Under the pieces are notes generated by a model, which saw only the letters and a program-made list of their open reading frames with translations, made no database searches and was not told the origin of the DNA. Shown here piece by piece: positions 9,056 to 32,523 of a stretch of 32,523 nt of DNA. How positions within the stretch are numbered: the first letter of the stretch is position 1; each line of letters starts with the position of its first letter. The position numbers and the translations under genes were made by a program. Source of the DNA: Marivita sp. (GTDB lineage: Bacteria; Pseudomonadota; Alphaproteobacteria; Rhodobacterales; Rhodobacteraceae). The stretch spans positions 1 to 32,523 of the forward strand of contig NZ_JALEGT010000117.1 of assembly GCF_022763305.1 (NCBI RefSeq). Direction: 5' to 3'.

Positions 9056-9874
9056 TCAATCGCCCAGCTTGGCGTGCACTTCGTCGAGGTCGATCTCTCC
9101 GATGGGCATCTTGTTTCCCGGGTTTTCGAAATCGTATTTGAAAAGCTCGAAATCCTTTTTGTAGATCTCGTAGACGAGGTGCATCGACAGGTTGTCGAAA
9201 TAATCCTCGACCGGATGCGCCCGCTTGGGGCCATGCCCTTCGCTTTCGTTGAAACGTGGGATTTCTTTCAGGTCGATCTTCTGTTTGGTGTCGACATGGT
9301 TCAGGACGTCGGCCATCCCGTCATTGAACGTTTCTGTCCAGAAGATCTTGTCGTAGCGTCCTCCATTCACGATGAAAGTGCTGATATGACCTGACATCGC
9401 CGACCAGTGGATGTCCGGGTCCATCGGGCGACGCCAGCGGATCGTGTCACGGGCAAAGAGAAGAAAGCGGCGGAAACTCTTGATCTGGTCGAAGTCCTGC
9501 TTGCCGTCTTCGCCGCCAACCTCGATCCCGTATTTCTGGATCAGCAGCGGCACGAGATTGCCGCGATAGCGTTTCCCGTTGCGCTGAATGCCGCAGATCT
9601 TGTCGAAGAACGAGCTCAGGATGCGGGTGTAGGGATTGCGCACGCAGGTGAAGGCATAGGTGTCCTGAGCCTGAATGCGCTTCGTGATCGGGTCCTTTGA
9701 ATGGTCGAGCGCCCATTTGTGCAGGCCAGACTGCGCATCGTGGATGTCGCCGTCAAAGAATTCGCCGTGATCCGAGAAATACATGATCTGACCGATGGTC
9801 GAGCACGCGCATTTCGGCACTACGCGATAGACCATGCTTTCGCTTTCAGTCATCCATGTTCCGGGAAATCCCAT
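9056..9874 (-). CDS. PAPS-dependent sulfotransferase family protein
   Basis: This 272-residue protein is predicted to transfer sulfate from 3'-phosphoadenylyl sulfate, most likely to a carbohydrate, as in the Sulfotransfer_2 (carbohydrate sulfotransferase) group. The 5'-phosphosulfate loop is PKCACSTI (20-27, with K21, S25 and T26). The 3'-phosphate motif is RNPYTRILSSF (R79, S87/S88). Further conserved blocks are SFRRFLLFARDTI, DIHWSAMSGH and LVYEIYKKDFELF near the C-terminus. There is no signal peptide or membrane segment. I chose the ATG at 9874 because GGAGG lies upstream and the PAPS loop then sits near the N-terminus as usual. The frame extends 21 codons further. It diverges from a branching glycosyltransferase (10016-11593), a pairing repeated at the right end of the window. 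The acceptor is unknown. Confidence 0.85.
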   Translation of the reverse strand: MGFPGTWMTESESMVYRVVPKCACSTIGQIMYFSDHGEFFDGDIHDAQSGLHKWALDHSKDPITKRIQAQDTYAFTCVRNPYTRILSSFFDKICGIQRNGKRYRGNLVPLLIQKYGIEVGGEDGKQDFDQIKSFRRFLLFARDTIRWRRPMDPDIHWSAMSGHISTFIVNGGRYDKIFWTETFNDGMADVLNHVDTKQKIDLKEIPRFNESEGHGPKRAHPVEDYFDNLSMHLVYEIYKKDFELFKYDFENPGNKMPIGEIDLDEVHAKLGD

Positions 9875-10015
9875 TTGTCTGCCGCCTCCAGCCTCGTTCC
9901 GGGCTCTTGTCGTCCGGTAACGTAAACAAAAAATCAAAGAAAGTCGGTTTATTCAATCACTGAACGCGCTTATCACTACAAGAACGAGGTGAAATTAGGG
10001 CAGATGAAGAGCTGA

Positions 10016-11593
10016 ATGGCGAATATTGCCTTCATACTCCTGTGTCACAAGGATCCGGACGCGATCATCCGACAGGCGCTCAGCCTGACAGCGGTCGGAG
10101 ACTTCATCTCGATCCATTTCGATGCCCGCGCCGACGCGGCGGCCTTCGCATCGATCCAGAAGGCGCTGTCCGACAACCCGAACGTCACTTTCGCCAAGAA
10201 GCGAATCAAGTGCGGCTGGGGAGAATGGTCGCTGGTGCAAGCGACGCTCTACGCGGTCGAGGCAGCGGTTGAGGCGTTTCCGAGGGCCACGCACTTCTAC
10301 ATGTTGTCGGGCGATTGTCAGGCGATCAAGACAGCCGAGTATGCGCATGCCTATCTCGACCGGATGGATGCGGATTTCATTGAAAGCTTTGATTTCTTCG
10401 CGTCCGACTGGATCAAGACCGGGATGAAGGAAGAGCGGCTGATCTATCGCCACTACTTCAACGAGCGCACCCAGAAAACGATCTTCTATCACAGCTTCAA
10501 TCTGCAACGGAAACTGGGGCTCAAGCGCAAGATCCCCGAAGATCTGGAAATCCAGATCGGCAGCCAGTGGTGGTGCCTGCGACGGCGCACGATCGAAGCG
10601 ATCCTCGATTTCGTGCGGCAGCGTCGGGATGTGATGCGGTTCTTCAGCACCACATGGATTCCTGACGAGACGTTTTTCCAGACGCTGGTGCGGCACCTTG
10701 TGCCCGAAAACGAGATCGAATGCCGGACGCTGACCTTCCTGATGTTCTCGGATTACGGGATGCCGGTCACGTTCTACAACGATCACTTCGATCTTCTGCT
10801 CAGCCAGGATTTCCTGTTTGCCCGCAAGATCAGCCCGGAGGCGCTGCAATTGAAAGAGCGGCTGGGGTCGCTCTATTCCGCCAAGGGTGTCAATTTCCAG
10901 ATCTCGAACGAGGGCAGGTCGCTCTACAAGTTCCTGACCGGCAAAGGGCGCATCGGGCGCCGGTTCGCGCCGCGCTTCTGGGAAACCGAAAGTACATTGG
11001 GGCGCGAGCGCGAGTTGCTGATCGTGATCTGCAAGAAATGGCACGTGGCCAAGCGCCTCGTGGCGCGCATCCGACAGCTGACCAACGTGCCCTGCATCGA
11101 ATATCTGTTCAATGAAGAGCAGACCGACCTGCCGGATATGGGCGGTATCCAGTCCACGCTGGGCAAGCGGCACCGCCATCGCCGGTCGCTGATGCGGATG
11201 TTGTTCGACTATTTCGATTCCGACCGCATGGTGGTGTGCATGGATCCGGGCAATCTCGACCTTCTCGAGGATTTCTGCCGCGACCGGGCGACGACGCGCC
11301 TGCTCGAAATCAACTGTACCTTCTCGGATGAGTACCTGATCGGCCACGCGATGCGCGTCGGGCTGGCCGGAGAGCGGACGCCGCAGGAAACGCTGGAACG
11401 GCTTTTGCCGACGATCCGCAACGACATCGTGCATGAAAGTGACCGGATTCGGGATGCGGAGTTCGAAAACCACCTGCGCATCCGTGAAGAAGACAGTATC
11501 GACGTGAACGCCGCTGCCTTGGCCAGCTTCCTGTCCATCACCAAGGAACAGGCGCTGGACATTGCCCGCACGGACCACCTGTTTGCAGACTGA
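10016..11593 (+). CDS. Core-2/I-branching-type glycosyltransferase with extra C-terminal domain
   Basis: This is a 525-residue predicted beta-1,6-N-acetylglucosaminyltransferase-like enzyme (Branch, GT14 fold). Residues 1-272 carry the family blocks IHFDARAD (33-40), CGWGEWSLVQA, MLSGDC (96-101), FIESFDF, GSQWWCL (182-188), WIPDETFFQTL (214-224) and FLFARKIS. The remaining 250 residues form a separate domain (starting about ELLIVICKKWHVAKRLVARI) that I believe corresponds to DUF5928, although I could not check the name. The GT domain aligns closely with the one encoded at 29990-31696. It diverges from a sulfotransferase gene and is followed after 11 bases by a HIT gene, probably in one transcript. 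There is no signal peptide. The product likely acts in the cytoplasm on a glycan precursor. Sugar specificity is inferred only from the family. Confidence 0.82.
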   Translation: MANIAFILLCHKDPDAIIRQALSLTAVGDFISIHFDARADAAAFASIQKALSDNPNVTFAKKRIKCGWGEWSLVQATLYAVEAAVEAFPRATHFYMLSGDCQAIKTAEYAHAYLDRMDADFIESFDFFASDWIKTGMKEERLIYRHYFNERTQKTIFYHSFNLQRKLGLKRKIPEDLEIQIGSQWWCLRRRTIEAILDFVRQRRDVMRFFSTTWIPDETFFQTLVRHLVPENEIECRTLTFLMFSDYGMPVTFYNDHFDLLLSQDFLFARKISPEALQLKERLGSLYSAKGVNFQISNEGRSLYKFLTGKGRIGRRFAPRFWETESTLGRERELLIVICKKWHVAKRLVARIRQLTNVPCIEYLFNEEQTDLPDMGGIQSTLGKRHRHRRSLMRMLFDYFDSDRMVVCMDPGNLDLLEDFCRDRATTRLLEINCTFSDEYLIGHAMRVGLAGERTPQETLERLLPTIRNDIVHESDRIRDAEFENHLRIREEDSIDVNAAALASFLSITKEQALDIARTDHLFAD

Positions 11594-11604
11594 GGACACG
11601 CCGC

Positions 11605-11976
11605 ATGGCCTACACCTATGACGACCAGAACATCTTCGCCAAGATCCTGCGCGGCGAGATCCCCAATGCCACCGTTCTCGAAACCGAACACACGCTGGCG
11701 TTCCGGGACATCCAGCCGCAAGCCCCGGTGCATGTGCTGGTGATCCCGAAGGGGCCTTACGTGTGCTACGATCACTTCGCGCTTGAGGCGAGCGATGCCG
11801 AAATCGTCGATTTCAACCGCGCCGTGGGCGATGTGGTGAAGGCCGAAGGGTTGCAGGAAGGTGGATACCGGATCATCTCGAACGCCGGCGAAGCCGGAGT
11901 GCAGGAGGTGCCGCATCTGCATGTCCACGTGCTGGGCGGCCGGGGTCTGGGACGGATGCTGCAACGGGCGGGGTAA
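11605..11976 (+). CDS. hinT: HIT family nucleotide-binding protein (HinT-like)
   Basis: This 123-residue histidine-triad hydrolase is expected to cleave aminoacyl-adenylates or purine-nucleoside phosphoramidates as a homodimer. The triad is H104-L-H106-V-H108 within VPHLHVHVLGGRGLG. The N-terminal FAKILRGEIPNATVLET and FRDIQPQAPVHVLVIPK blocks are typical of HinT/PKCI. Length matches the family. The ATG at 11605 has GAGGAC 10 bases upstream and lies 11 bases behind the glycosyltransferase stop, so the two are probably cotranscribed. Functional linkage between them is not obvious. The gene is followed at once by the twin-palindrome element. Confidence 0.93.
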   Translation: MAYTYDDQNIFAKILRGEIPNATVLETEHTLAFRDIQPQAPVHVLVIPKGPYVCYDHFALEASDAEIVDFNRAVGDVVKAEGLQEGGYRIISNAGEAGVQEVPHLHVHVLGGRGLGRMLQRAG

Positions 11977-12020
11977 AAGCGCCTTCGAAGGCGCTTGGTC
12001 AAGCCGCTTCGAAGCGGCTT
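11977..12020. repeat. Twin-palindrome element, copy A
   Basis: Two perfect 20-base palindromes are separated by GGTC: AAG-CGC-CTTCGAAG-GCG-CTT (11977-11996) and AAG-CCG-CTTCGAAG-CGG-CTT (12001-12020). They fit the frame AAG-NNN-YTTCGAAR-NNN-CTT that is also found at 17304-17346. The element begins one base after the HIT stop and ends 9 bases before the ABC ATPase stop, between convergent genes. A bidirectional transcription terminator or a REP-like element are the main possibilities. There is no T-tract. Confidence 0.8.
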
Positions 12021-12029
12021 GCGCCCCCC

Positions 12030-12947
12030 TCAGGCCGAGCGCGTGAGCGACAGGAACACGTCCTCCAGATCGGCCTGTTCGGTGCGCACGTCACGGATGC
12101 GGACGCCGTTGTCGCGCAGCATCGACAGAACGTCTTCGGCCGAGGTCTGGCGCGCGCGATAGCTGACTGCCAGCGTGCCGTCCTCGCGGGTGGTGACGCC
12201 GATGCCGTCGACCTTGGGCAAGGTGCCGACGTTGCCCTCGGGCTGGATCACCATGGTCTTGGCATCGAGCGCCCCCAGCAGATTGCGCGTGCTGTCGCGG
12301 GCCACCACCGCGCCGTGGTTGATGATCGCGATCTCGTCACACATCTCTTCGGCCTCTTCGAGGTAATGCGTGGTCAGGATGATCGTCATGCCCTCGTCGC
12401 GGTTCAGCTTGCGCACATTGGCCCAGAGCATCTGCCGGAGTTCGATGTCAACCCCGGCGGTGGGTTCGTCCAGCACCAGCACATGCGGCCGGTGCACCAG
12501 CGCCTTGCCCAGAAGAAGCCGCCGCCGCATGCCGCCTGACAGCGTGCGGGCATAGGCTTCGGCCTTGTCGGTGAGGCCGATCATGTCGAGGATCTCGTCG
12601 GATCGCCGTTGCGCCTTCGGCACGCCGTAGAGACCCGCCTGCACCTCAAGCGCCCCGCGCGGGGTGAAGAAGGGATCGAGGTTAAGCTCCTGAGGCATGA
12701 CCCCGATCGAGGCGCGCGACTGGCGCGGATTCACGTCCTGATCCCAGCCCCAGATCGTCACCCTGCCGGCGGATTTCGTCACGAGACCGGCCAGAATGTT
12801 GATCAGCGTGGATTTTCCGGCCCCGTTCGGCCCCAAAAGTCCGAAGACCGATCCGCGCGGAACCGTCAGGTCGATGCCTTTGAGGGCTTCCTTGCCTCCG
12901 GAATAGGTCTTTTTCAGCCCTTCGATCTCAATGGCATCCTGTGTCAT
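12030..12947 (-). CDS. ABC transporter ATP-binding protein (ABC-2 / CcmA type)
   Basis: This 305-residue ATPase has Walker A GPNGAGKS (39-46), the Q-loop region MPQELNLDPFFTPR, the signature LSGGMRRRLLLGKAL, Walker B VLVLDEPTAGVD and the H-loop ILTTHYLEEAEEM. A C-terminal extension of about 85 residues is typical of ATPases serving ABC-2-type exporters such as NodI or drug and polysaccharide exporters. I chose the ATG at 12947 (MTQDAIEIEGLKKTYSG); 14 further codons upstream look unlike coding sequence. No permease gene is adjacent: the neighbours are the HIT gene (convergent) and the CHCC zinc-finger gene (divergent). The partner membrane subunit must be encoded elsewhere. The substrate cannot be told from the ATPase. 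Confidence 0.9.
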   Translation of the reverse strand: MTQDAIEIEGLKKTYSGGKEALKGIDLTVPRGSVFGLLGPNGAGKSTLINILAGLVTKSAGRVTIWGWDQDVNPRQSRASIGVMPQELNLDPFFTPRGALEVQAGLYGVPKAQRRSDEILDMIGLTDKAEAYARTLSGGMRRRLLLGKALVHRPHVLVLDEPTAGVDIELRQMLWANVRKLNRDEGMTIILTTHYLEEAEEMCDEIAIINHGAVVARDSTRNLLGALDAKTMVIQPEGNVGTLPKVDGIGVTTREDGTLAVSYRARQTSAEDVLSMLRDNGVRIRDVRTEQADLEDVFLSLTRSA

Positions 12948-14494: not shown

Positions 14495-17296
14495 ATGGCA
14501 TTCGGCAAAGGACATCACCTTCACCTGATCGACGGGTCGGCCTTTATCTTTCGCGCCTACCACGCGTTGCCGCCGCTCACGCGCAAATCCGATGGCCTGC
14601 CCATCGGGGCGGTCAGCGGGTTCTGCAACATGCTGCAGCGTTATGTGGAAGGGAATGCCGGGTCGGACGTGACCCATGTCGCTGTGATCTTCGACAAGGG
14701 CAGCCACACGTTCCGCAACGACATGTACGACCAGTACAAGGCCAACCGCGAGGCGATGCCCGAAGACCTGCGCCCGCAGATCCCGCTGACCCGCCGCGCG
14801 ACCGAAGCGTTCAATATCGCCTGCAAGGAGCTTGAGGGGTACGAAGCCGACGACATCATCGCGACCCTTGCCTGTAAGGCGCGCGAGGCTGGGGGCAGGG
14901 TGACGATCATCAGTTCGGACAAGGACCTGATGCAATTGGTCGGCGACGGTGTCGAGATGTTCGACGCCATGAAGAACCGCACCATCGACCGCGAAGGGGT
15001 GTTCGAGAAATTCGGCGTCTATCCGGACCGCGTTGTCGATGTGCAGGCGTTGGCGGGCGACAGCGTCGACAACGTGCCGGGCGCGCCGGGGATCGGGATC
15101 AAGACGGCGGCGTTGCTGATCAATGAATTCGGGTCACTGGAGGAGCTGCTGGATCGCGCCGAAGAGATCAAGCAACCCAAGCGCCGCGAAACGCTGATCG
15201 AAAAACGCGACCAGATCGAATTATCGAAGAAGTTGGTTCTTCTCGATTGCAACACGCCGCTGGATTTCACGCTGGATGATCTTGAAGTGAAGGATCCCGA
15301 TCCAGACAAGCTGATGCCGTTTCTTGCGGAAATGGAGTTCCGAACGCTGACGAAGCGTATCGCCGACGCGCTGGAGGTAGAGCCGCCGGTGATCACCGAC
15401 ACGACGCCGGAAGGTGCCAATCCGCCCGAGCGCGACGCGCCGGAATGGCCGGCGATGGACACCGAGGGCTATGACTGCGTGCGCGACATGACGGCGTTGC
15501 AGGGCTGGATCGCCGCCGCGCGGGAGCGCGGCTGGGTCGCGGTCGATACCGAGACCACGGGTCTCAACGAGATGATCGCCGAGCTGGTGGGTGTGTCGCT
15601 GTGTGTCGAACCGGGCAAGGCCTGCTACATCCCGTTGATCCACAAGGCGGAAGGCGGAGAAGGGCTCTTCGGCTCCGATGATCTTGCCGATGGCCAGATC
15701 GCGATGGACGAGGCACTGGCTGCGCTGAAGCCTCTGCTCGAGGATCCGGCGGTGATGAAGATCGGGCAGAACATGAAATACGATGCCAAGATCCTCTGTC
15801 GCTATGGCATCGATATCTCGCCCATCGACGACACGATGCTGATGTCCTACGCGATGAATGCCGGGTTGCACGGGCACGGCATGGACACGCTCAGCGAACG
15901 GTATCTTGGCCACAATCCGATTCCGATCAAGGACCTGCTGGGAAGCGGCAAGAGCATGATCACCTTCGACCGCGTGCCCATTGAGCAGGCGACGAAATAC
16001 GCCGCCGAGGATGCCGAGATCACACTGCGCCTCTGGCACATGTTCAAGCCGCAGCTGCACCAGGTGCATGTCACGCGCGTCTACGAAGGGATGGAGCGGC
16101 CCCTTGTGCCGGTTCTGGCAGAGATGGAACGCGCGGGTATCAAGGTTGATCGCGACACGCTCAGCCGTATGTCGAACGCGTTCAGTCAGAAGATGGCGGG
16201 GCTGGAGGACGAGATTTACGAGCTTGTGGGCCGCAAATTCAATGTCGGATCGCCCAAGCAATTGGGCGAGATCCTGTTCGACGAGATGGGTCTGGACGGC
16301 GGCAAGCGCGGCAAGACAGGGGCCTATGCCACGGGTGCCGATGTGCTGGAGGATCTGGCCACCGAGCACGAATTGCCGCGCCGGGTGCTCGACTGGCGGC
16401 AATTGTCCAAGCTGAAATCGACCTATACCGACGCGCTGCAGGATCACATCAACCGCGACACGGGGCGGGTGCATACGTCCTACTCCATCGCGGGGGCCAA
16501 CACCGGGCGTCTGGCCTCGACCGATCCGAACCTGCAGAACATCCCCGTCCGTACCGAGGAGGGCCGCCGCATTCGCGAGGCGTTTGTCGCGGAAGAGGGC
16601 AAGACGCTGGTCTCGCTCGACTACAGCCAAATCGAGTTGCGCATACTGGCCCATATCGCCGACATTCAGGCGCTGAAGGATGCCTTCAAGGAGGGGCAGG
16701 ACATTCACGCAGCCACTGCGTCGGAAATGTTCAACGTTCCTCTGGACGAGATGACGCCGGATGTGCGCCGTCAGGCCAAGGCGATCAACTTTGGTGTGAT
16801 CTACGGGATCAGCGGCTTCGGTCTTGCCCGCAACCTGCGCATCCCGAGGGCCGAGGCGCAGGGCTTCATCGACCGCTATTTCGAACGCTTCCCGGGCATC
16901 AAGGCGTATATGGACGACACCACCGCCTTTGCGCAGAAACACAATCGGGTTGAGACGCTGTTCGGTCGCGTGATCCATACGCCCGAGATCAATGCGAAAG
17001 GCCCGCGTGCAGGCTTTGCGAAGCGCGCCGCGATCAACGCGCCGATTCAGGGCACGGCTGCTGACATCATCCGCCGGGCGATGATCCGAATGCCGGACGC
17101 GATCAAGGGGCTGCCTGCGAAGATGCTGCTGCAGGTGCATGACGAATTGCTGTTCGAGGTGGATCAGGGCGCCGAGGACGACCTGATCAAGGTCGCGCGC
17201 GAGGTGATGGAAGGCGCCGCCGATCCGGTGGTTCACCTGACTGTGCCTCTGGTCGCGGATGCCGGGCAGGGCAGGAACTGGGCCGAGGCGCATTGA
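14495..17296 (+). CDS. polA: DNA polymerase I
   Basis: This is a 933-residue polymerase with three domains. Residues 1-290 form the 5'-3' exonuclease (IDGSAFIFRAYHALPPL, GYEADDIIATLA, SSDKDLMQLV, GDSVDNVPGAPGIGIKTA). Residues about 335-535 form the 3'-5' proofreading exonuclease, which appears intact: VDTETTG near 350, QNMKYDAKIL and YAAEDAEITLR. The polymerase domain has motif A SLDYSQIELR (about 706), motif B RRQAKAINFGVIYGISGFG (about 758) and motif C LQVHDELLFEV (about 881). It fills gaps in repair and removes Okazaki primers. GAGGA precedes the ATG at a normal distance. The downstream twin-palindrome element separates it from the YdeI-like gene. Confidence 0.98.
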   Translation: MAFGKGHHLHLIDGSAFIFRAYHALPPLTRKSDGLPIGAVSGFCNMLQRYVEGNAGSDVTHVAVIFDKGSHTFRNDMYDQYKANREAMPEDLRPQIPLTRRATEAFNIACKELEGYEADDIIATLACKAREAGGRVTIISSDKDLMQLVGDGVEMFDAMKNRTIDREGVFEKFGVYPDRVVDVQALAGDSVDNVPGAPGIGIKTAALLINEFGSLEELLDRAEEIKQPKRRETLIEKRDQIELSKKLVLLDCNTPLDFTLDDLEVKDPDPDKLMPFLAEMEFRTLTKRIADALEVEPPVITDTTPEGANPPERDAPEWPAMDTEGYDCVRDMTALQGWIAAARERGWVAVDTETTGLNEMIAELVGVSLCVEPGKACYIPLIHKAEGGEGLFGSDDLADGQIAMDEALAALKPLLEDPAVMKIGQNMKYDAKILCRYGIDISPIDDTMLMSYAMNAGLHGHGMDTLSERYLGHNPIPIKDLLGSGKSMITFDRVPIEQATKYAAEDAEITLRLWHMFKPQLHQVHVTRVYEGMERPLVPVLAEMERAGIKVDRDTLSRMSNAFSQKMAGLEDEIYELVGRKFNVGSPKQLGEILFDEMGLDGGKRGKTGAYATGADVLEDLATEHELPRRVLDWRQLSKLKSTYTDALQDHINRDTGRVHTSYSIAGANTGRLASTDPNLQNIPVRTEEGRRIREAFVAEEGKTLVSLDYSQIELRILAHIADIQALKDAFKEGQDIHAATASEMFNVPLDEMTPDVRRQAKAINFGVIYGISGFGLARNLRIPRAEAQGFIDRYFERFPGIKAYMDDTTAFAQKHNRVETLFGRVIHTPEINAKGPRAGFAKRAAINAPIQGTAADIIRRAMIRMPDAIKGLPAKMLLQVHDELLFEVDQGAEDDLIKVAREVMEGAADPVVHLTVPLVADAGQGRNWAEAH

Positions 17297-17301
17297 TGCG
17301 C

Positions 17302-17346
17302 GGAAGAGATTTCGAAATCTCTTCCCAAGGCTCTTCGAAGAGCCTT
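17302..17346. repeat. Twin-palindrome element, copy B
   Basis: The first palindrome, AAG-AGA-TTTCGAAA-TCT-CTT (17304-17323), is extended by GG/CC to 24 bases at 17302-17325. The second, AAG-GCT-CTTCGAAG-AGC-CTT, lies at 17327-17346. They share the fixed frame of copy A (11977-12020) but have different, self-complementary inner triplets. This copy lies between two genes in the same direction, 6 bases after the polA stop and 9 bases before the next ATG, where it replaces a recognisable ribosome-binding site. Confidence 0.8.
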
Positions 17347-17354
17347 TCCCGCCC

Positions 17355-17912
17355 ATGACCGAGGTCGAAGTCAAATCCCGCGCCGAGCTGCGCGCGTGGC
17401 TGGCCGAGAACCACACCCGGACCGAGGGCGTCTGGCTGGTCGTCTACAAGAAACACACCGACCACTACCTGCCGTGGGGGGATGCGGTCTCGGAACTTCT
17501 GTGTTGGGGTTGGGTCGACAGTGTCACGCGTAAGGTGGACGCGGATCGCTCGTCTTACCGCATTGCGCCGCGCAACCCCAAATCCGCATGGTCGGCGGTC
17601 AACAAGGCCAAGGTCGAGGAAGCCCGCGCCGCCGGGCTGATGACACCCGCCGGTGAAGCGCTGATCGCGGCGGCGCAGGATAATGGCATGTGGGTTTTCC
17701 TTGACGATGTGGAGCGGCTGGAACGGCCCGACGATCTCACAGTCGCGCTGGGCGATCTTGGTTCGGTTTGGGACAACTACCCGAAATCGGTCAAACGCGG
17801 CACGCTGGAATGGATCAAGACGGCCAAGACCGAGGCAACCCGCAGGAAACGGATTGAGGATGTCGTCAGTTCGGCTCAGTCAGGTTTGCGTCCTAGCCCC
17901 TTCCGACGCTGA
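17355..17912 (+). CDS. YdeI / OmpD-associated family protein
   Basis: This 185-residue cytoplasmic protein resembles the YdeI/OmpD-associated family. It has an N-terminal SRAELRAWLAENHTRTEGVW and VYKKHTDHYLPWGDAVSELL, the strongly conserved CWGWVDSVTRKVDADRSSYR segment, PRNPKSAWSAVNKAKVEEA, and a C-terminal helical repeat region (WDNYPKSVKRGTLEWIKTAKTEATRRKRIEDVV). The biochemical role is uncertain; some relatives are linked to resistance to cationic peptides. The ATG at 17355 gives the usual N-terminus. The frame runs upstream through the twin-palindrome element into polA, but that part is not family-like. No Shine-Dalgarno is visible, because the palindrome occupies its place. Confidence 0.85.
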   Translation: MTEVEVKSRAELRAWLAENHTRTEGVWLVVYKKHTDHYLPWGDAVSELLCWGWVDSVTRKVDADRSSYRIAPRNPKSAWSAVNKAKVEEARAAGLMTPAGEALIAAAQDNGMWVFLDDVERLERPDDLTVALGDLGSVWDNYPKSVKRGTLEWIKTAKTEATRRKRIEDVVSSAQSGLRPSPFRR

Positions 17913-21835: not shown

Positions 21836-22504
21836 ATGACATTTTCCAAACTTCCCATGACAGCCGTGCTGTGCAGCGCATTGGCACTTTCTGCGTGCAC
21901 GACGGGCACCTTCAACGATCCGAACGACCCCAACCGCCAAGCCAAGCAAGGCGCACTGATCGGCGCTGGCACCGGTGCCGTGATTGGCGCCTTGATGGGT
22001 AACGATCCCGAAGAGCGTCGCCGCAATGCCGTTCTGGGTGCGGCCATCGGTGGTGGTGGCGGTGCGATCATCGGCAACCGGCTCGACCGACAGGAAGCTG
22101 ACCTGCGCGCGCAGATCGGCAACAACAACGTCGACATCCGCAACACCGGCGACCGCCTGATCGTGACTCTGCCGCAAGACATCCTGTTCCCCACCGATAG
22201 CGCCACCCTGCGCCCCGATCTGCAGCGCGATCTGCGGACCGTGGGCCAGAACCTGCTGGCCTATCCGGATACAACAGTTCAGGTCATTGGCCACACCGAC
22301 AATACCGGCGACGCGGGCTACAACCTCAACCTGTCGCGCCAGCGGGCGCAATCGGTTGCGAACATCCTGATGAGCGAAGGCGTGCCGTCGTTCCGCATCC
22401 AGAGCATTGGGCGCGGTGAGGATCAGCCGATCGCAAGCAACCTGACGCCGGAAGGCCGGGCGCAGAACCGGCGTGTGGAAATTGTGATCCTGCCCAACGC
22501 CTGA
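21836..22504 (+). CDS. OmpA family outer-membrane lipoprotein with glycine zipper
   Basis: This is a 222-residue envelope lipoprotein. The signal peptide MTFSKLPMTAVLCSALALSA ends in the lipobox LSA-C21. Residues 39-76 form a glycine-zipper region (GALIGAGTGAVIGALMGND and VLGAAIGGGGGAIIGN). Residues about 100-220 form an OmpA-type peptidoglycan-binding domain (ILFPTDSATLRPDL, VIGHTDNTGDAGYNLNLSR, RIQSIGRGEDQPIASN, NRRVEIVI). The protein probably anchors the outer membrane to the cell wall. GAGG lies 8 bases before the ATG at 21836. The frame extends to a TTG at 21725, but the lipobox and ribosome-binding site fix the start. A strong intrinsic terminator follows. Confidence 0.93.
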   Translation: MTFSKLPMTAVLCSALALSACTTGTFNDPNDPNRQAKQGALIGAGTGAVIGALMGNDPEERRRNAVLGAAIGGGGGAIIGNRLDRQEADLRAQIGNNNVDIRNTGDRLIVTLPQDILFPTDSATLRPDLQRDLRTVGQNLLAYPDTTVQVIGHTDNTGDAGYNLNLSRQRAQSVANILMSEGVPSFRIQSIGRGEDQPIASNLTPEGRAQNRRVEIVILPNA

Positions 22505-22527: not shown

Positions 22528-22558
22528 GGCCCGCATCCTTGTGATGCGGGCCTTTTTT
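22528..22558 (+). terminator. Rho-independent terminator after the OmpA-like gene
   Basis: The stem GGCCCGCAT (22528-22536) pairs with ATGCGGGCC (22544-22552) across a 7-base loop and is followed by six T residues (22553-22558). This is the clearest intrinsic terminator in the window, 24 bases after the stop codon. Confidence 0.92.
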
Positions 22559-28546: not shown

Positions 28547-29986
28547 TCAGCTCCGTTGGACGGGGTCGAACGCACTGAATCCGAACATCATGTAGTCGCG
28601 CGGATAGGCGTCGCGGCAAAGCCGATCCAGATCGCCATCATGGATCGCGACCAGCCGCGCCAGATGCGGCTCTGGGACTGAGGGCCATTCCGGCGCGGAT
28701 CCGGCGCCAAAACGCAGGGCCATCTCGGAAAGGTCCCGTGCAAGGTCCTCTTCCCGCAGAACCCGGTCTGGCAGGCAGAACTCCGACATGCCCTGAAGGC
28801 AGGTCGCCTGACTGGCCCAGTGGGCATCGACCCTCACGCTGGTCTGACCGTTCAGATTGGCGCGCAGGAACATCAGGAACGCCTCGAACGCCTTGCGATG
28901 CGCGGCAAGATCGAAGGACGGATCGGCACCATCCTCGGGCAGTGCGAGTCCGTGAAACCGCATCAACTGCTGGCGGATCTTGGCGTAGCTTCCCGGACCC
29001 GTATTCAGGATCTTGTCGCAGAAGGCGGCATGCGCCCGGATCAAAGGGTGCCTGAGGACGGTAAAACGCTGATGCCCCGGATTGTCCTGCAACCAGCCGC
29101 GCAGGGTCTTTTGGTTGAACTTGCCGACAAGCTCGGACCCGTCGCCGTCCAGTGCTGTCATCCAGGCGGTCACCTGTTCTTCCGGGCCCGAGCGGATCGG
29201 CATGTAGAGCAAAGGATATGTGCTGCAGGCGAGGTAGGTCGGCACGACAGGCCCGCGCCGCGGTTCAAAGTTCGGCGTGCGTGTCAGATCGAAGCGATCC
29301 AGCGCCCGCAAAGCAACTTCCATCTGCGGGTAGTTTGCGACCTTGTCCGCCAAAGCCTGTGGGTTCTGCGGCTTGAGAGTTGACTGAAAGACCTCGGGCT
29401 CCGCTTCGACCCCCAGCCAACGCGCAAGCCCGCTCAGCACTTCGGTATCGTGGAGATCGTCATAGCCGATATAGAACGCGCTTTGCCCCGTCACCTGCAG
29501 CGCCCGCATGATCTCGAGCTGGAAGCTTTGTGTCTGCCCAAGATGGCGTTCGAATTCCGTAAGGTCGAAATAGGCTTGCGCGTCCTTGCGGTTCTTGACG
29601 TTGGTCAGCTTCCACTGGTCCGTCGCACGCGCGATCTTGAGGCTGATATAGCTATCAAGCGGATTGCGGGTCAGGATGATCTTGGCGCAGCGCGGGTCCG
29701 ACAGGATTGGCGCAAGCACGCGCGGATCATGGTCGTGGAAATAGCGAAAGCCGCCCAGCCCCTCGGTCTTGTCGCGGATCGCGCGCAGGAGCCTGTCGGG
29801 ATTGTCCTCGCGCTGCCGATGGGTGATGCCAAGGATATCGTCGCGCTTCGGATACCCTATGAAATTCGGATTGAACGCCTCGCCGTGACAGGTCACGCGG
29901 GCGATCTGGTTCAGATAATCCTCGAGGAGGTTCGACCCGGTGCGCATTTCCGCGAAGACGACAAACAGATCAAAGGGCACGGTCAA
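28547..29986 (-). CDS. Tandem two-domain sulfotransferase family protein
   Basis: This is a 479-residue protein, apparently a fusion of two sulfotransferase-like domains. The N-terminal domain (1-245) resembles the Stf0 type: 5'-phosphosulfate loop R15-TGSNLL, and 3'-phosphate motif R107-NPLDSYIS. The C-terminal domain (about 250-475) aligns with the stand-alone sulfotransferase at 9056-9874: FTVLRHPLIRAHAAFCDKIL against FTCVRNPYTRILSSFFDKIC, FEAFLMFLRANL against FRRFLLFARDTI, and DAHWASQATC against DIHWSAMSGH. In this second domain the PKxxxST loop has become PIRSGPEEQV and the 3'-motif serines are alanines (A320/A321). It is therefore probably not catalytic. It is the last gene of a three-gene minus-strand operon, 3 bases after a branching glycosyltransferase, which suggests sulfation of a glycan. 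Confidence 0.8.
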   Translation of the reverse strand: MTVPFDLFVVFAEMRTGSNLLEDYLNQIARVTCHGEAFNPNFIGYPKRDDILGITHRQREDNPDRLLRAIRDKTEGLGGFRYFHDHDPRVLAPILSDPRCAKIILTRNPLDSYISLKIARATDQWKLTNVKNRKDAQAYFDLTEFERHLGQTQSFQLEIMRALQVTGQSAFYIGYDDLHDTEVLSGLARWLGVEAEPEVFQSTLKPQNPQALADKVANYPQMEVALRALDRFDLTRTPNFEPRRGPVVPTYLACSTYPLLYMPIRSGPEEQVTAWMTALDGDGSELVGKFNQKTLRGWLQDNPGHQRFTVLRHPLIRAHAAFCDKILNTGPGSYAKIRQQLMRFHGLALPEDGADPSFDLAAHRKAFEAFLMFLRANLNGQTSVRVDAHWASQATCLQGMSEFCLPDRVLREEDLARDLSEMALRFGAGSAPEWPSVPEPHLARLVAIHDGDLDRLCRDAYPRDYMMFGFSAFDPVQRS

Positions 29987-29989
29987 AGG

Positions 29990-31696
29990 TTACTTCTTCA
30001 CCAGGTAGGGGCGGGGGCGCGGCGCATTCAGGGCGGGCCCCTGTGCGATCGGGTCGGCGGGGAAATCACCCATGAGATAGGGATGCATCCCCTGGTTCTT
30101 GAGGTTCTGCAGGAACTGCCCGAACCCGGTCAGGTCCACCATCTTGGGCGCTTCGGTCAGACGCCGTTGCGGTTGTGTTCCGATTTCGTCAACGATCACC
30201 TGGATCGCTTCCATCGGGCTTTCGATAAATTCCGCCATCGTCCAGATGCGTCGGCGGCATTTGGAATAGGGCGACCGCAGAGCATTCAGCATCTCGGTCT
30301 CGATCTTCTGCAACTGCGCCGCCTCGCGCCGCAATTCGGCAAAGCTCCGGTTGGACTGGAAGAGCGGGATCGCCCAGGCGCCCGAGATGACCGACACCTG
30401 CGCGTTGGGGTCCTTGGCGATGTCCCAAACGACATGCCGCGTGCTGCTTGGCCCAAGCTGAAAGCACTGCCGTTCCCCGCGCGTGTTCCACAGGAGGTTG
30501 GTCAGGAACATCTTGGTGTCATAGTCGCGCAGCGTCGCGTTGTCGGACAGCGCACCGTTCATCACCGTTTGCCCGTCGGCGAAATGCGCCCGGTCCGGGG
30601 CAAAGAGATGCCCATGCACCCGCGCCCCTGTCACCTGCGCAAGCCACGGTTCGAAATCGGTGAAAAGCTCTGTGAAGCCCTGAAACACCGAATACTTGGC
30701 TGCCGTGACCCCGTTTTCCCAATCCTCGTTCGGGAAACGGCTTTGCATGTAAAGCCCCGGACGTCCGCGTGTCCGCCGGTCCACCGCCTTTGCAAAGATG
30801 CGGTCGATCTTGCCGGGGTTGGGTTCCTGCAGGCTCAACTCTCCCGGTTTGGGGCTGAGGAAGGTCTCGTACAGGCGGTCCGCATTGTGCCAGATCTTGC
30901 GCGCCACAAAGCAGTCCGACCGCCGCAGCAGTTGCAGATGGTCGTCGTAAAAGATGTGCGGTTTGCCTTGGAAATCGAACTTTGACAGCGTGAGCGAACG
31001 ACTCACGATATTGGTCGAATAGAGCCGCGCGAGTGTCTGGAAATAGCTTTCATCCGGAATCCACACGTGGCGGAAATACCGATCATAGACCTTGCGCTTG
31101 GGGTCTTCGAGGATCGACGCAAGCGTCTGCCGCGTGAGACACCACCATTGGCTGCCCATATGTGGCGTAAGCCCGTCGGGGATATTGCGCTTGTAGCCGA
31201 CCTTGCGCTGGAGTTCGACGAACTTGTCGAACAGATACCGATTGCGCCGCCACGAGAACGGGAAGCGCATGGTAAAGCGTTCTTCGTCCAGCCCGCCCAC
31301 GGTCCACGGCACATCCGCCGTTGTTGCGCTTTCGATGTGATCGGTGCGCGGGCGCGCCTTGAGATAGTCGATCAGTTCCTGAACCGGGCGCAATGGCAGG
31401 CAGGACCCAGACGTGAGGTAGACGTGGCTCACATCCTCGAATTCCGACAGCATCAGCTCACTGGCGTCCTGACTGGCGGCCACCAGACCCCACGTGCCCC
31501 AGTCGCAGCGGTGTCTTCGCGAAAAGCGGATCAGGGGATCATCGCTGAGCCGTTCAATGAAGATCTTGTAGCGCTTTGCCGACACGACCTGATCCACATG
31601 GATCACCACCGGGCAGCCCGCCTTGGTCCAGTGGCGCGCCACCTGCTCGGCCCGGTGAAGCGCGGTGTGCGCCAGCATGATGATTCCGATGCTCAT
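29990..31696 (-). CDS. Core-2/I-branching-type glycosyltransferase, second paralogue
   Basis: This is a 568-residue predicted beta-1,6-N-acetylglucosaminyltransferase-like enzyme. Its first 270 residues share the same ordered blocks as the enzyme at 10016-11593: VIHVDQ (31-36), CDWGTWGLVAA, TSGSC (95-99), HIES, LQRKVGYKRNIP, GSQWWCL (181-187), VWIPDESYFQTL and DCFVARKIW. The C-terminal 300 residues differ from the other paralogue (containing RGRPGLYMQSRFPNEDWENG and LLWNTRGERQCFQLGPSSTR) and probably correspond to DUF5927, a name I could not verify. Its ATG overlaps the stop of the upstream GT2 gene (ATGA), and a sulfotransferase follows after 3 bases. The three products likely build one glycan. 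Confidence 0.82.
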   Translation of the reverse strand: MSIGIIMLAHTALHRAEQVARHWTKAGCPVVIHVDQVVSAKRYKIFIERLSDDPLIRFSRRHRCDWGTWGLVAASQDASELMLSEFEDVSHVYLTSGSCLPLRPVQELIDYLKARPRTDHIESATTADVPWTVGGLDEERFTMRFPFSWRRNRYLFDKFVELQRKVGYKRNIPDGLTPHMGSQWWCLTRQTLASILEDPKRKVYDRYFRHVWIPDESYFQTLARLYSTNIVSRSLTLSKFDFQGKPHIFYDDHLQLLRRSDCFVARKIWHNADRLYETFLSPKPGELSLQEPNPGKIDRIFAKAVDRRTRGRPGLYMQSRFPNEDWENGVTAAKYSVFQGFTELFTDFEPWLAQVTGARVHGHLFAPDRAHFADGQTVMNGALSDNATLRDYDTKMFLTNLLWNTRGERQCFQLGPSSTRHVVWDIAKDPNAQVSVISGAWAIPLFQSNRSFAELRREAAQLQKIETEMLNALRSPYSKCRRRIWTMAEFIESPMEAIQVIVDEIGTQPQRRLTEAPKMVDLTGFGQFLQNLKNQGMHPYLMGDFPADPIAQGPALNAPRPRPYLVKK

Positions 31697-32523
31697 GCCC
31701 AGTTGCCCATCGACATGAGGCCCAGGATTTCAAGCTGCCGCCAGTTGATGTATTTTTCCGACCACTTGCACCACAGTTCCGGATGGTCCTGCAGCGCATT
31801 TGCATAGGCGACATATTCAAGACTGCCCGCATAATGTTCGCGCCGCTTGAGTTCTTCCATCGCCTTTTCATTGAACGTGCTCAGAAACTTGGTGTGGAGC
31901 AGGGCACCCGACGCTTTTTCGCCGCCCCATTCGTCGTACACCTTGTTCAGACCGCGAGGCAGAAGCATGTGTGTCGAACTGGCATAGGCGTACCGGTGGT
32001 GCCATTTCACAAGCGGGATCTTGTTCAGCGCAGGCGCCGCTTCGGGACGGTCGGCAAAGAAAACGCGCGCTCGTGGTCCACCCTGTATCCACAGGTTGCC
32101 GAGAAGATGATTGCGCTTGAGCGTGTAATTCCCGGAGTCGAACCATGACGCGATTTCGAGCGGGTTCTGTCCCGCCTGATACTGGACTGCGTCGATCCGG
32201 CCTTTGGGATACATGTCGAGCAGCATCGCGCTGAACGACCGGATCGAAGACGCATCAAGCCAATCCGTCAGCGCAGGCAGCGGACGCGAATCGCAGAACG
32301 GGTAGACGAAGAATTCATCCGGATCGACGGTCAGGCACCAGTGATCGTGGCCATAGCGCCGAAGCAGCCAGTTGATCCAGTCCATGCCGAAACGCGACCG
32401 CTTGTAACTTTTGCGCGTGTGCCAGACCGACACGTCCGGCTGCTTCGACAGCATCTCCACCGTGCCATCGGTGCTGTCATTGTCGACGAAGAAGAAATGG
32501 GAAATCCCCATTTCCCTGTAGTA
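31693..32523 (-). CDS. Glycosyltransferase family 2-like protein (5' end outside window)
   Basis: The frame is open to the right edge; upstream of the methionine at 32511 the codons read YYRE and continue out of the window. The true N-terminus, probably 20-100 residues, is therefore missing. The visible part starts within the nucleotide-binding strand MGISHFFFVDNDSTDGTVEM. It contains the metal-binding DxD-type motif in WCLTVDPDEFFVYPF, then WFDSGNYTLKRN, KIPLVKWHHRYAYASSTHML and a C-terminal YINWRQLEILGL. This matches the glycosyl transferase family 2 variant (Glyco_tranf_2_4) frequent near surface-glycan genes. It is first or early in the operon with the branching glycosyltransferase (ATGA overlap) and the tandem sulfotransferase. 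Confidence 0.85.
   Translation of the reverse strand, partial: YYREMGISHFFFVDNDSTDGTVEMLSKQPDVSVWHTRKSYKRSRFGMDWINWLLRRYGHDHWCLTVDPDEFFVYPFCDSRPLPALTDWLDASSIRSFSAMLLDMYPKGRIDAVQYQAGQNPLEIASWFDSGNYTLKRNHLLGNLWIQGGPRARVFFADRPEAAPALNKIPLVKWHHRYAYASSTHMLLPRGLNKVYDEWGGEKASGALLHTKFLSTFNEKAMEELKRREHYAGSLEYVAYANALQDHPELWCKWSEKYINWRQLEILGLMSMGNWA

Follow-up and report, generated by a model that had tools for sequence, protein, structure and literature searches.

The window analysed here is a 32,523-nt stretch of DNA from a Marivita species, in which two gaps between genes hold the same kind of element. The first gap separates two convergent genes, a HIT-family gene on the forward strand (11605-11976; gene call, Pfam HIT, E 7.6e-23) and an ABC-transporter ATPase gene on the reverse strand (12030-12947; Pfam ABC_tran, E 1.7e-31). 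Array 1 (11977-12020) fills the 53 nt between their stop codons, leaving 0 nt to the HIT-family gene and 9 nt to the transporter gene. It is made of two perfect palindromes, palindrome 1 at 11977-11996 (arm AAGCGCC) and palindrome 2 at 12001-12020 (arm AAGCCGC), joined by the 4-nt spacer GGTC (11997-12000). Array 2 (17304-17346) lies between co-directional genes, 7 nt downstream of polA, the gene for DNA polymerase I (14495-17296, forward strand; Pfam DNA_pol_A, E 4.1e-151), and 8 nt upstream of the called start of a YdeI/OmdA-type gene (17355-17912, forward strand; gene call, Pfam OmdA, E 8.1e-12). Here the spacer is CCC (17324-17326), with palindrome 3 at 17304-17323 (arm AAGAGAT) and palindrome 4 at 17327-17346 (arm AAGGCTC) on its two sides. 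An earlier note on this DNA had described four perfect 20-base palindromes in two pairs, with spacers of 3-4 bases and both pairs starting less than 10 bases from a stop codon, and this description is borne out in full: the pattern AAGNNNYTTCGAARNNNCTT has exactly four matches in the window, at the places just given, all of them perfect palindromes, and the maximum in 100 dinucleotide shuffles of the window is 0. In RNA folding, array 1 reaches z scores of -4.5 and -3.7 on its two strands and the sense strand of array 2 reaches -4.4, beating 200 of 200 shuffles for either array. A canonical hairpin with a T-rich tail on each side, at 22528-22552 and 3' of the gene at 21857-22504, offers a good internal contrast to the arrays. 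The window also carries two clusters (9056-11593 and 28547-32511) of sulfotransferase-like genes (Sulfotransfer_2; weak in the second cluster), with Core-2/I-branching glycosyltransferase genes fused to DUF5928 or DUF5927 and a family 2 glycosyltransferase; these are possibly surface glycan genes.

How widespread are these palindromes? In the source genome (G000 in our numbering; a draft of 121 contigs and 4.43 Mb) the pattern of the earlier note has 26 exact 20-mer matches, all perfect palindromes, and a looser core-and-ends pattern has 39 against 2 for its control. The note had allowed that the motif might be no commoner than base composition predicts, which the 26 matches against 0 for the reversed control pattern speak against. 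The pattern is present in 17/17 Marivita genomes, with 3 to 57 copies each, and outside Marivita in 6 of the 44 other genomes searched, G018 having the most (40 matches). When one genome was taken for each of 295 genera of the bacterial family, 51 had at least one match and 20 at least five (up to 93), the remaining 244 had none, and the reversed control never gave more than two. Among the matches listed, the twin form occurs in Nioella, Tropicibacter, Roseovarius, Marivita, Histidinibacterium, Pseudoponticoccus, Maliponia, Rhodosalinus, Aestuariivita and other Rhodobacteraceae. A covariance model built from 51 four-unit arrays gives 62 both-strand matches in the source genome (150 of 2271 candidates scored), merging to about 32 places, with a possible double count of one place, since L444 and L448, at two contig ends, have 78 identical bases in common. 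The places include both window arrays, array 1 with 51.7 bits (E 8.3e-10) and array 2 with 43.7 bits (E 8.1e-8), these E-values being rough. With 62 candidates scored per genome, the same model finds 18 of 61 genomes, namely all 17 Marivita and G018. The array family is real, non-random and lineage-specific: tandem perfect palindromes at gene 3' ends.

Other carriers were considered and rejected. Of 116 stretches among the matches listed, the 22 from outside Rhodobacteraceae (set apart by title) are not palindromic, with 2-6 mismatches over 10 arm positions in the first unit. A phage origin fares no better, as in 48 of the 50 IMG/VR stretches fitting the twin pattern the first unit is no palindrome, with 2-6 mismatches; one true array (L378) is similar to the array in L054, and another stretch (L374) is a CTTCGAAG-type repeat. 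In PLSDB plasmids, blastn with one four-unit array as query gave no match at E up to 0.01. In the Bacteroidetes MAG GWE2_42_24, dispersed CTTCGAAGC-type direct repeats fit the twin pattern without being palindromic units (L051, L053, L059, L065, L078, L085, L099 and L151). In G075 and G293, the same palindrome comes back after about 110-140 bp (as at G075:C1:28921 and 29033), like two arrays around something.

Across the loci collected there are 183 arrays of at least two units, of which 94 have two units, 29 three, 57 four and 3 five. The name 'twin' given in the earlier note therefore suits the window pairs but covers just a part of the family, which elsewhere also has arrays of three or four units. 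Neighbouring units keep a centre-to-centre distance of 22-25 bp in 318 of 335 cases, the spacers between them varying from 2 to 6 nt, and 394 of the 518 units begin with AAG and 446 have TTCGAA at the centre. Because arrays of three and four units, ACGC-type starts and TTGCAA centres exist, the earlier pattern finds a part of the family. The four-unit arrays can be aligned as a single oriented element with the units U1 (AAGGCC), U2 (ACGCG), U3 (AAGCGC) and U4 (AAGCCG), mostly centred on TTCGAA, with the exceptions mainly in U2. This alignment holds 51 of 53 arrays (L133 and L293 were left out), six of which (L087, L094, L102, L110, L116 and L136) were re-oriented by eye with the ACGC unit second; the unit consensus depends on this step, whereas the pairing counts hardly do, because each unit is its own reverse complement. 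By this consensus palindromes 1, 2 and 4 of the window resemble, and may correspond to, U3, U4 and U1, respectively. Orthologous loci differ in unit number between species (4, 2, 2, 3 and 4 recognisable units in one group), so a short array, such as either of the two in the window, is probably a four-unit element that was shortened or has decayed. The left flanks of arrays are G-rich and the right flanks C-rich. An outer stem enclosing the array was rejected, its partners showing no covariation (z of at most 2.1 at each of 12 positions). A polarity relative to the gene was likewise not apparent, since U1 comes first in 15 co-directional four-unit arrays and U4 in 10. A species-specific arm code is at best suggested, with an arm identity of 0.66 within and 0.63 between genomes and 28 of 500 permutations as high.

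Where do the arrays lie? Of the 183, 78 are between convergent genes, 80 between co-directional and 7 between divergent ones, 6 are inside a called gene and 12 at contig edges. Thus 158 of 183 stand between convergent or co-directional genes, against a background of 130 convergent, 310 co-directional and 127 divergent gene pairs with gaps of 30 nt or more at the same loci (array pairs included). The commonest distance between stop codon and array is 5-9 nt. Between co-directional genes 66 of 80 arrays are closer to the upstream stop than to the downstream start, individual starts being uncertain because genes were called by a simple codon-usage script, and between convergent genes 30 of 78 have at most 15 nt on either side. 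According to earlier work reported in PMC12306157, translation is down-regulated by E. coli REPs that lie less than 16 nt behind a stop codon.

The sequences of the arms vary in a compensating way. In the 51-row alignment 97.7% of 1630 pair cells are paired, and 274 paired double changes, spread over 24 of the 32 pairs, stand against a shuffle mean of 66 (0 of 500 shuffles as high), with 7 cells in which a one-sided change keeps a pair. Sliding the partner columns by 1-3 destroys the signal, and RNAalifold, given the alignment as its sole input, predicts the same 32 pairs in four hairpins. Orthologs tell the same story: 63 comparisons hold 77 paired double changes, where about 8.5 would be expected under independent arms, along with 10 other double changes and 100 one-sided changes, the latter under-counted because units with more than one mispair go unseen. 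These comparisons were made star-wise against one reference, after the largest group (12 rows of mixed paralogs) had been dropped. At orthologous loci the arms diverge at 7% of sites and the spacers at 35% (155/444). The idea that selection or copying acts on the dyad as a whole, put forward from the four window palindromes, is strengthened by both counts, and its possible undoing, inner triplets that vary without compensation in other copies, was looked for and is not what the 274 double changes show.

Is the pairing needed in RNA or in DNA? The kind of mispair that occurs is the most informative test of this. Over arm positions 3-10, 476 of the 518 array units are perfect, 37 have one mispair (9 G.T and 9 A.C) and 5 have two; since the arrays were mostly collected via perfect or near-perfect units, this count is biased towards perfect copies. 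The unbiased figure is 185 of 197 units perfect over arm positions 4-10, counted where one arm lay outside the search pattern, in the Rhodobacteraceae stretches among the matches listed. U-tract terminators in the same loci behave differently, with 22 of 47 perfect and G.U in 18 of 25 single mispairs; the finder allowed one mispair, and the 47 include at least one array unit (perfect). G.T among single mispairs (9/37 in arrays against 18/25 in terminators) differs with Fisher p 3e-4. Behind co-directional genes, read on the mRNA strand, the 17 single mispairs in 219 units comprise 2 G.T and 6 A.C (p 1.5e-4 for this subset). G.T is not preferred even there, where a single strand forms a 3' UTR, and therefore pairing is demanded on both strands. 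The array family is under selection for such pairing. Three possibilities are left: hairpins in the RNA of either strand, a hairpin in the DNA, or template-switching correction added to selection.

The two window junctions can be followed through Marivita. At the HIT junction 12 of 17 genomes have at least one palindrome of at least 8 pairs (one mismatch allowed), and these are of several sequence types: G000, G001 and G014 have one arm pair in common, the others carry 1-3 units with different arms, and G002, G007, G012, G013 and G015 are without a palindrome. At the polA junction both palindromes are kept in G000, G001, G003 and G016 and one in G007, with a coupled CG-to-GC change at one palindrome centre in G003; decayed remnants are recognisable in G005, G013 and G015, and the remaining Marivita genomes have no such array, G006 being unreadable there. 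The apparent next gene also follows closely behind the polA array in G001, G003 and G016; in G003 and G016 the sequence after the array resembles the start of the 17930 reading frame of the window, which would lie one gene further on. From these histories it follows that the element is inherited in place, is altered by compensated substitution and unit loss, and can be lost.

Which known element does this resemble? In the wide sense of REP, dispersed extragenic palindromes of 20-40 bp near gene 3' ends, the arrays at about 32 places in the source genome belong here. The label 'REP-like' in the earlier note is apt in that the arrays are dispersed, lie between genes and keep close to stop codons, but it does not extend to the tags and transposase of described REPs. 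According to the available text of a 2013 survey (PMC3733652), GTAG REP/BIME elements are dispersed extragenic palindromes in small composites, often downstream of coding regions, with complementary stem variants in which G.T pairing is often observed. The arrays share with these elements of E. coli and Pseudomonas (associated with RAYT/TnpA-REP) the dispersal, the small clusters, the gene 3' ends and the complementary stem variants; unlike them they have no GTAG tag, no RAYT in the source genome and no G.T excess, and they have four ordered units. GTAG occurs at 0 of 1034 positions directly 5' of units and at 10 of 360 array flanks, where chance would give 7.9. A link to RAYT is not supported, as the Y1/RAYT transposase family PF01797 has no match in G000, G011 or G018, which have 26, 30 and 40 pattern matches; it does have matches in four other Marivita (G005, G009, G014 and G016). 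The same survey text describes CGTC REPs as prominent in Alphaproteobacteria, with stems of 8-9 bp, loops of 4-5 nt, a predominance of head-to-head dimers and no dedicated transposase (PMC3733652). Stem and loop size, paired units and the lack of a transposase are likenesses; the arrays differ in having up to four units and in lacking the CGTC tag, which stands at 3 of 1034 unit flanks and at 4 of 360 array flanks (8.4 expected by chance). Rhodobacter, Roseobacter, Roseovarius, Ruegeria and TTCGAA do not occur in the survey text available.

The other proposal of the earlier note, a terminator family, is not supported in the sense of intrinsic termination: arrays have no U tail and no G.U preference, and array 2 ends 8 nt before a called start. 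In the 8 nt 3' of arrays the fraction of T is 0.12 and that of C 0.52, and 4 of 236 tails have at least five T. Canonical terminators are about equally frequent with and without an array, at convergent junctions (17/44 with, 15/55 without) as at co-directional ones (4/38 with, 34/235 without), so the arrays do not replace them; at L010 a hairpin with T-rich tails adjoins the array. Tandem or U-tail-less intrinsic terminators come in U-, V- and I-shaped classes. They too are tandem hairpins 3' of stop codons without a U tail, as generally described, while the arrays differ in being paired perfectly on both strands, with tip and base conserved and the units in a fixed order, and in covarying between paralogs. 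Integron attC sites, in their usual description, are likewise folded palindromic DNA 3' of a stop codon; the perfect pairing of the arrays, free of extrahelical bases, is unlike that description. None of the 4227 Rfam covariance models matches the window at gathering score, and none matches the 301 bases around the four-unit array of L262 at E up to 1; the open-access PMC papers found on palindromes, repeats or terminators in this bacterial group describe no such family in their titles or at the start of their abstracts. In their working the arrays are most like REP/BIME, yet in the features tested they agree neither with the two described REP superfamilies nor with intrinsic terminators.

What, then, could the arrays be doing? 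The reading we prefer, with a probability a little under one half (about 0.48), is a hairpin module of gene 3' ends, REP-like and independent of orientation, that selection on both strands maintains. Judging by the folding predictions, transcription of either strand would give a row of stable RNA hairpins directly 3' of the stop codon. This row may form a 3' boundary that works in either orientation and blocks 3'-to-5' exonucleases, it may affect the terminating ribosome or the trailing polymerase, and it could serve one gene or both convergent genes at once. The effect on RNA ends, and its direction, we infer. Some results sit badly with a 3' boundary: selection on RNA of one strand would predict tolerance of G.U behind co-directional genes, where the 17 mispairs hold few G.T, and copies at the polA and HIT junctions are lost or decayed in several Marivita, alongside the 100 one-sided changes in orthologs. 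With about 32 places in a 4.4-Mb genome and 244 of 295 genera without a match, the role is not an essential one.

The main rival to the 3'-boundary module is selection of a DNA hairpin, either a cruciform or a fold of single-stranded DNA in replication, which some protein would bind or cut or which would manage supercoiling at gene ends, the RNA hairpins being a by-product. Supercoiling management at gene ends has been proposed for BIMEs. This alternative is possible, if somewhat doubtful. It accounts well for Watson-Crick pairing on both strands even behind co-directional genes, for the high share of perfect units, and for the sequence conservation of base and tip, even though a hairpin leaves its central bases unpaired; against it, a distance of 5-9 nt from the stop codon is more natural for a role in RNA or translation, and there is no candidate protein, Y1 transposase, the one family tested, being absent from the source genome. 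A related but rather unlikely version takes the four hairpins, in their fixed order, as one DNA element that is selected either as DNA or as both-strand hairpins and is read by a putative factor; the two- and three-unit arrays, both window arrays among them, would be shortened forms of it. Since the TTCGAA tips are self-complementary, kissing between its hairpins would be allowed.

Could the arrays instead be selfish, REP- or MITE-like repeats that prefer gene ends and owe their perfection to quasi-palindrome template switching rather than selection? The family is dispersed and patchy (at least five matches in 20 of 295 genera) and decayed copies and array-free junctions exist, as at HIT and polA in Marivita. 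The correction has a precedent in E. coli, where, according to PMC7202029, template switching turns imperfect inverted repeats perfect or more perfect. This explanation is nevertheless improbable: copies are kept at orthologous junctions with arms that diverge less than spacers, something correction by itself would not predict (one-sided changes being under-counted), perfect stems are less frequent among the U-tract terminators of the same loci, the source genome has no RAYT, and copies within a genome share arms hardly more than copies from different genomes. Very unlikely are bidirectional intrinsic (Rho-independent) terminators of this lineage, which would suit the position between convergent genes and the stable hairpins on both strands but not the T-poor sequence after the arrays, the missing anticorrelation with canonical terminators, or the closeness of a downstream gene to array 2 and to the polA arrays of G001, G003 and G016. 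An ordinary double-stranded site for a dimeric protein, for which the constant AAG and TTCGAA and a pitch of about two helical turns could be cited, can hardly be the answer, because the freely varying positions vary in pairs (274 double changes), which a dimer site, or any duplex binding site, does not need.

Palindromic repeats of the best described kinds are marked by a tag and frequently accompanied by a transposase, and G·U pairs are usually tolerated in RNA hairpins. The array family has no tag, no tested transposase (in the source genome) and no G·U tolerance; its four units keep their order from genus to genus, and its copies remain at the same junctions between genes as mutations are compensated. 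Because close species have, shorten or lose arrays, the purpose of gene-end palindromes is directly testable in culturable relatives, and the covariance model gives annotators a handle on a repeat with no Rfam match.

A second dispersed sequence was seen near some arrays. About 250 nt long and conserved in the blocks GCGGCGCCGCC, GACCTGT, ACCGGTCTCTCATGGTC, GGGAGTGACCCT and GTTAA, it has copies at L215:1688-1949 (+), L221:2012-2266 (-), L228:1562-1816 (+) and L399:974-1229 (-), among others; at the loci inspected it lies outside every called gene and is apparently non-coding. With one copy as query it was found in 16 of 17 Marivita (2-11 matches each, at most 12 candidates being scored) and in 0 of 44 other genomes, and an Rfam search of seven loci gave no convincing match (one at E 0.52, below gathering score). 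It may be an undescribed RNA or repeat, often situated next to a palindrome array. A TTCGAA or TTGCAA palindrome lies within 450 nt of 12 of the 28 located copies, and RNAalifold predicts 29 pairs for the repeat, 8 of them with double changes.
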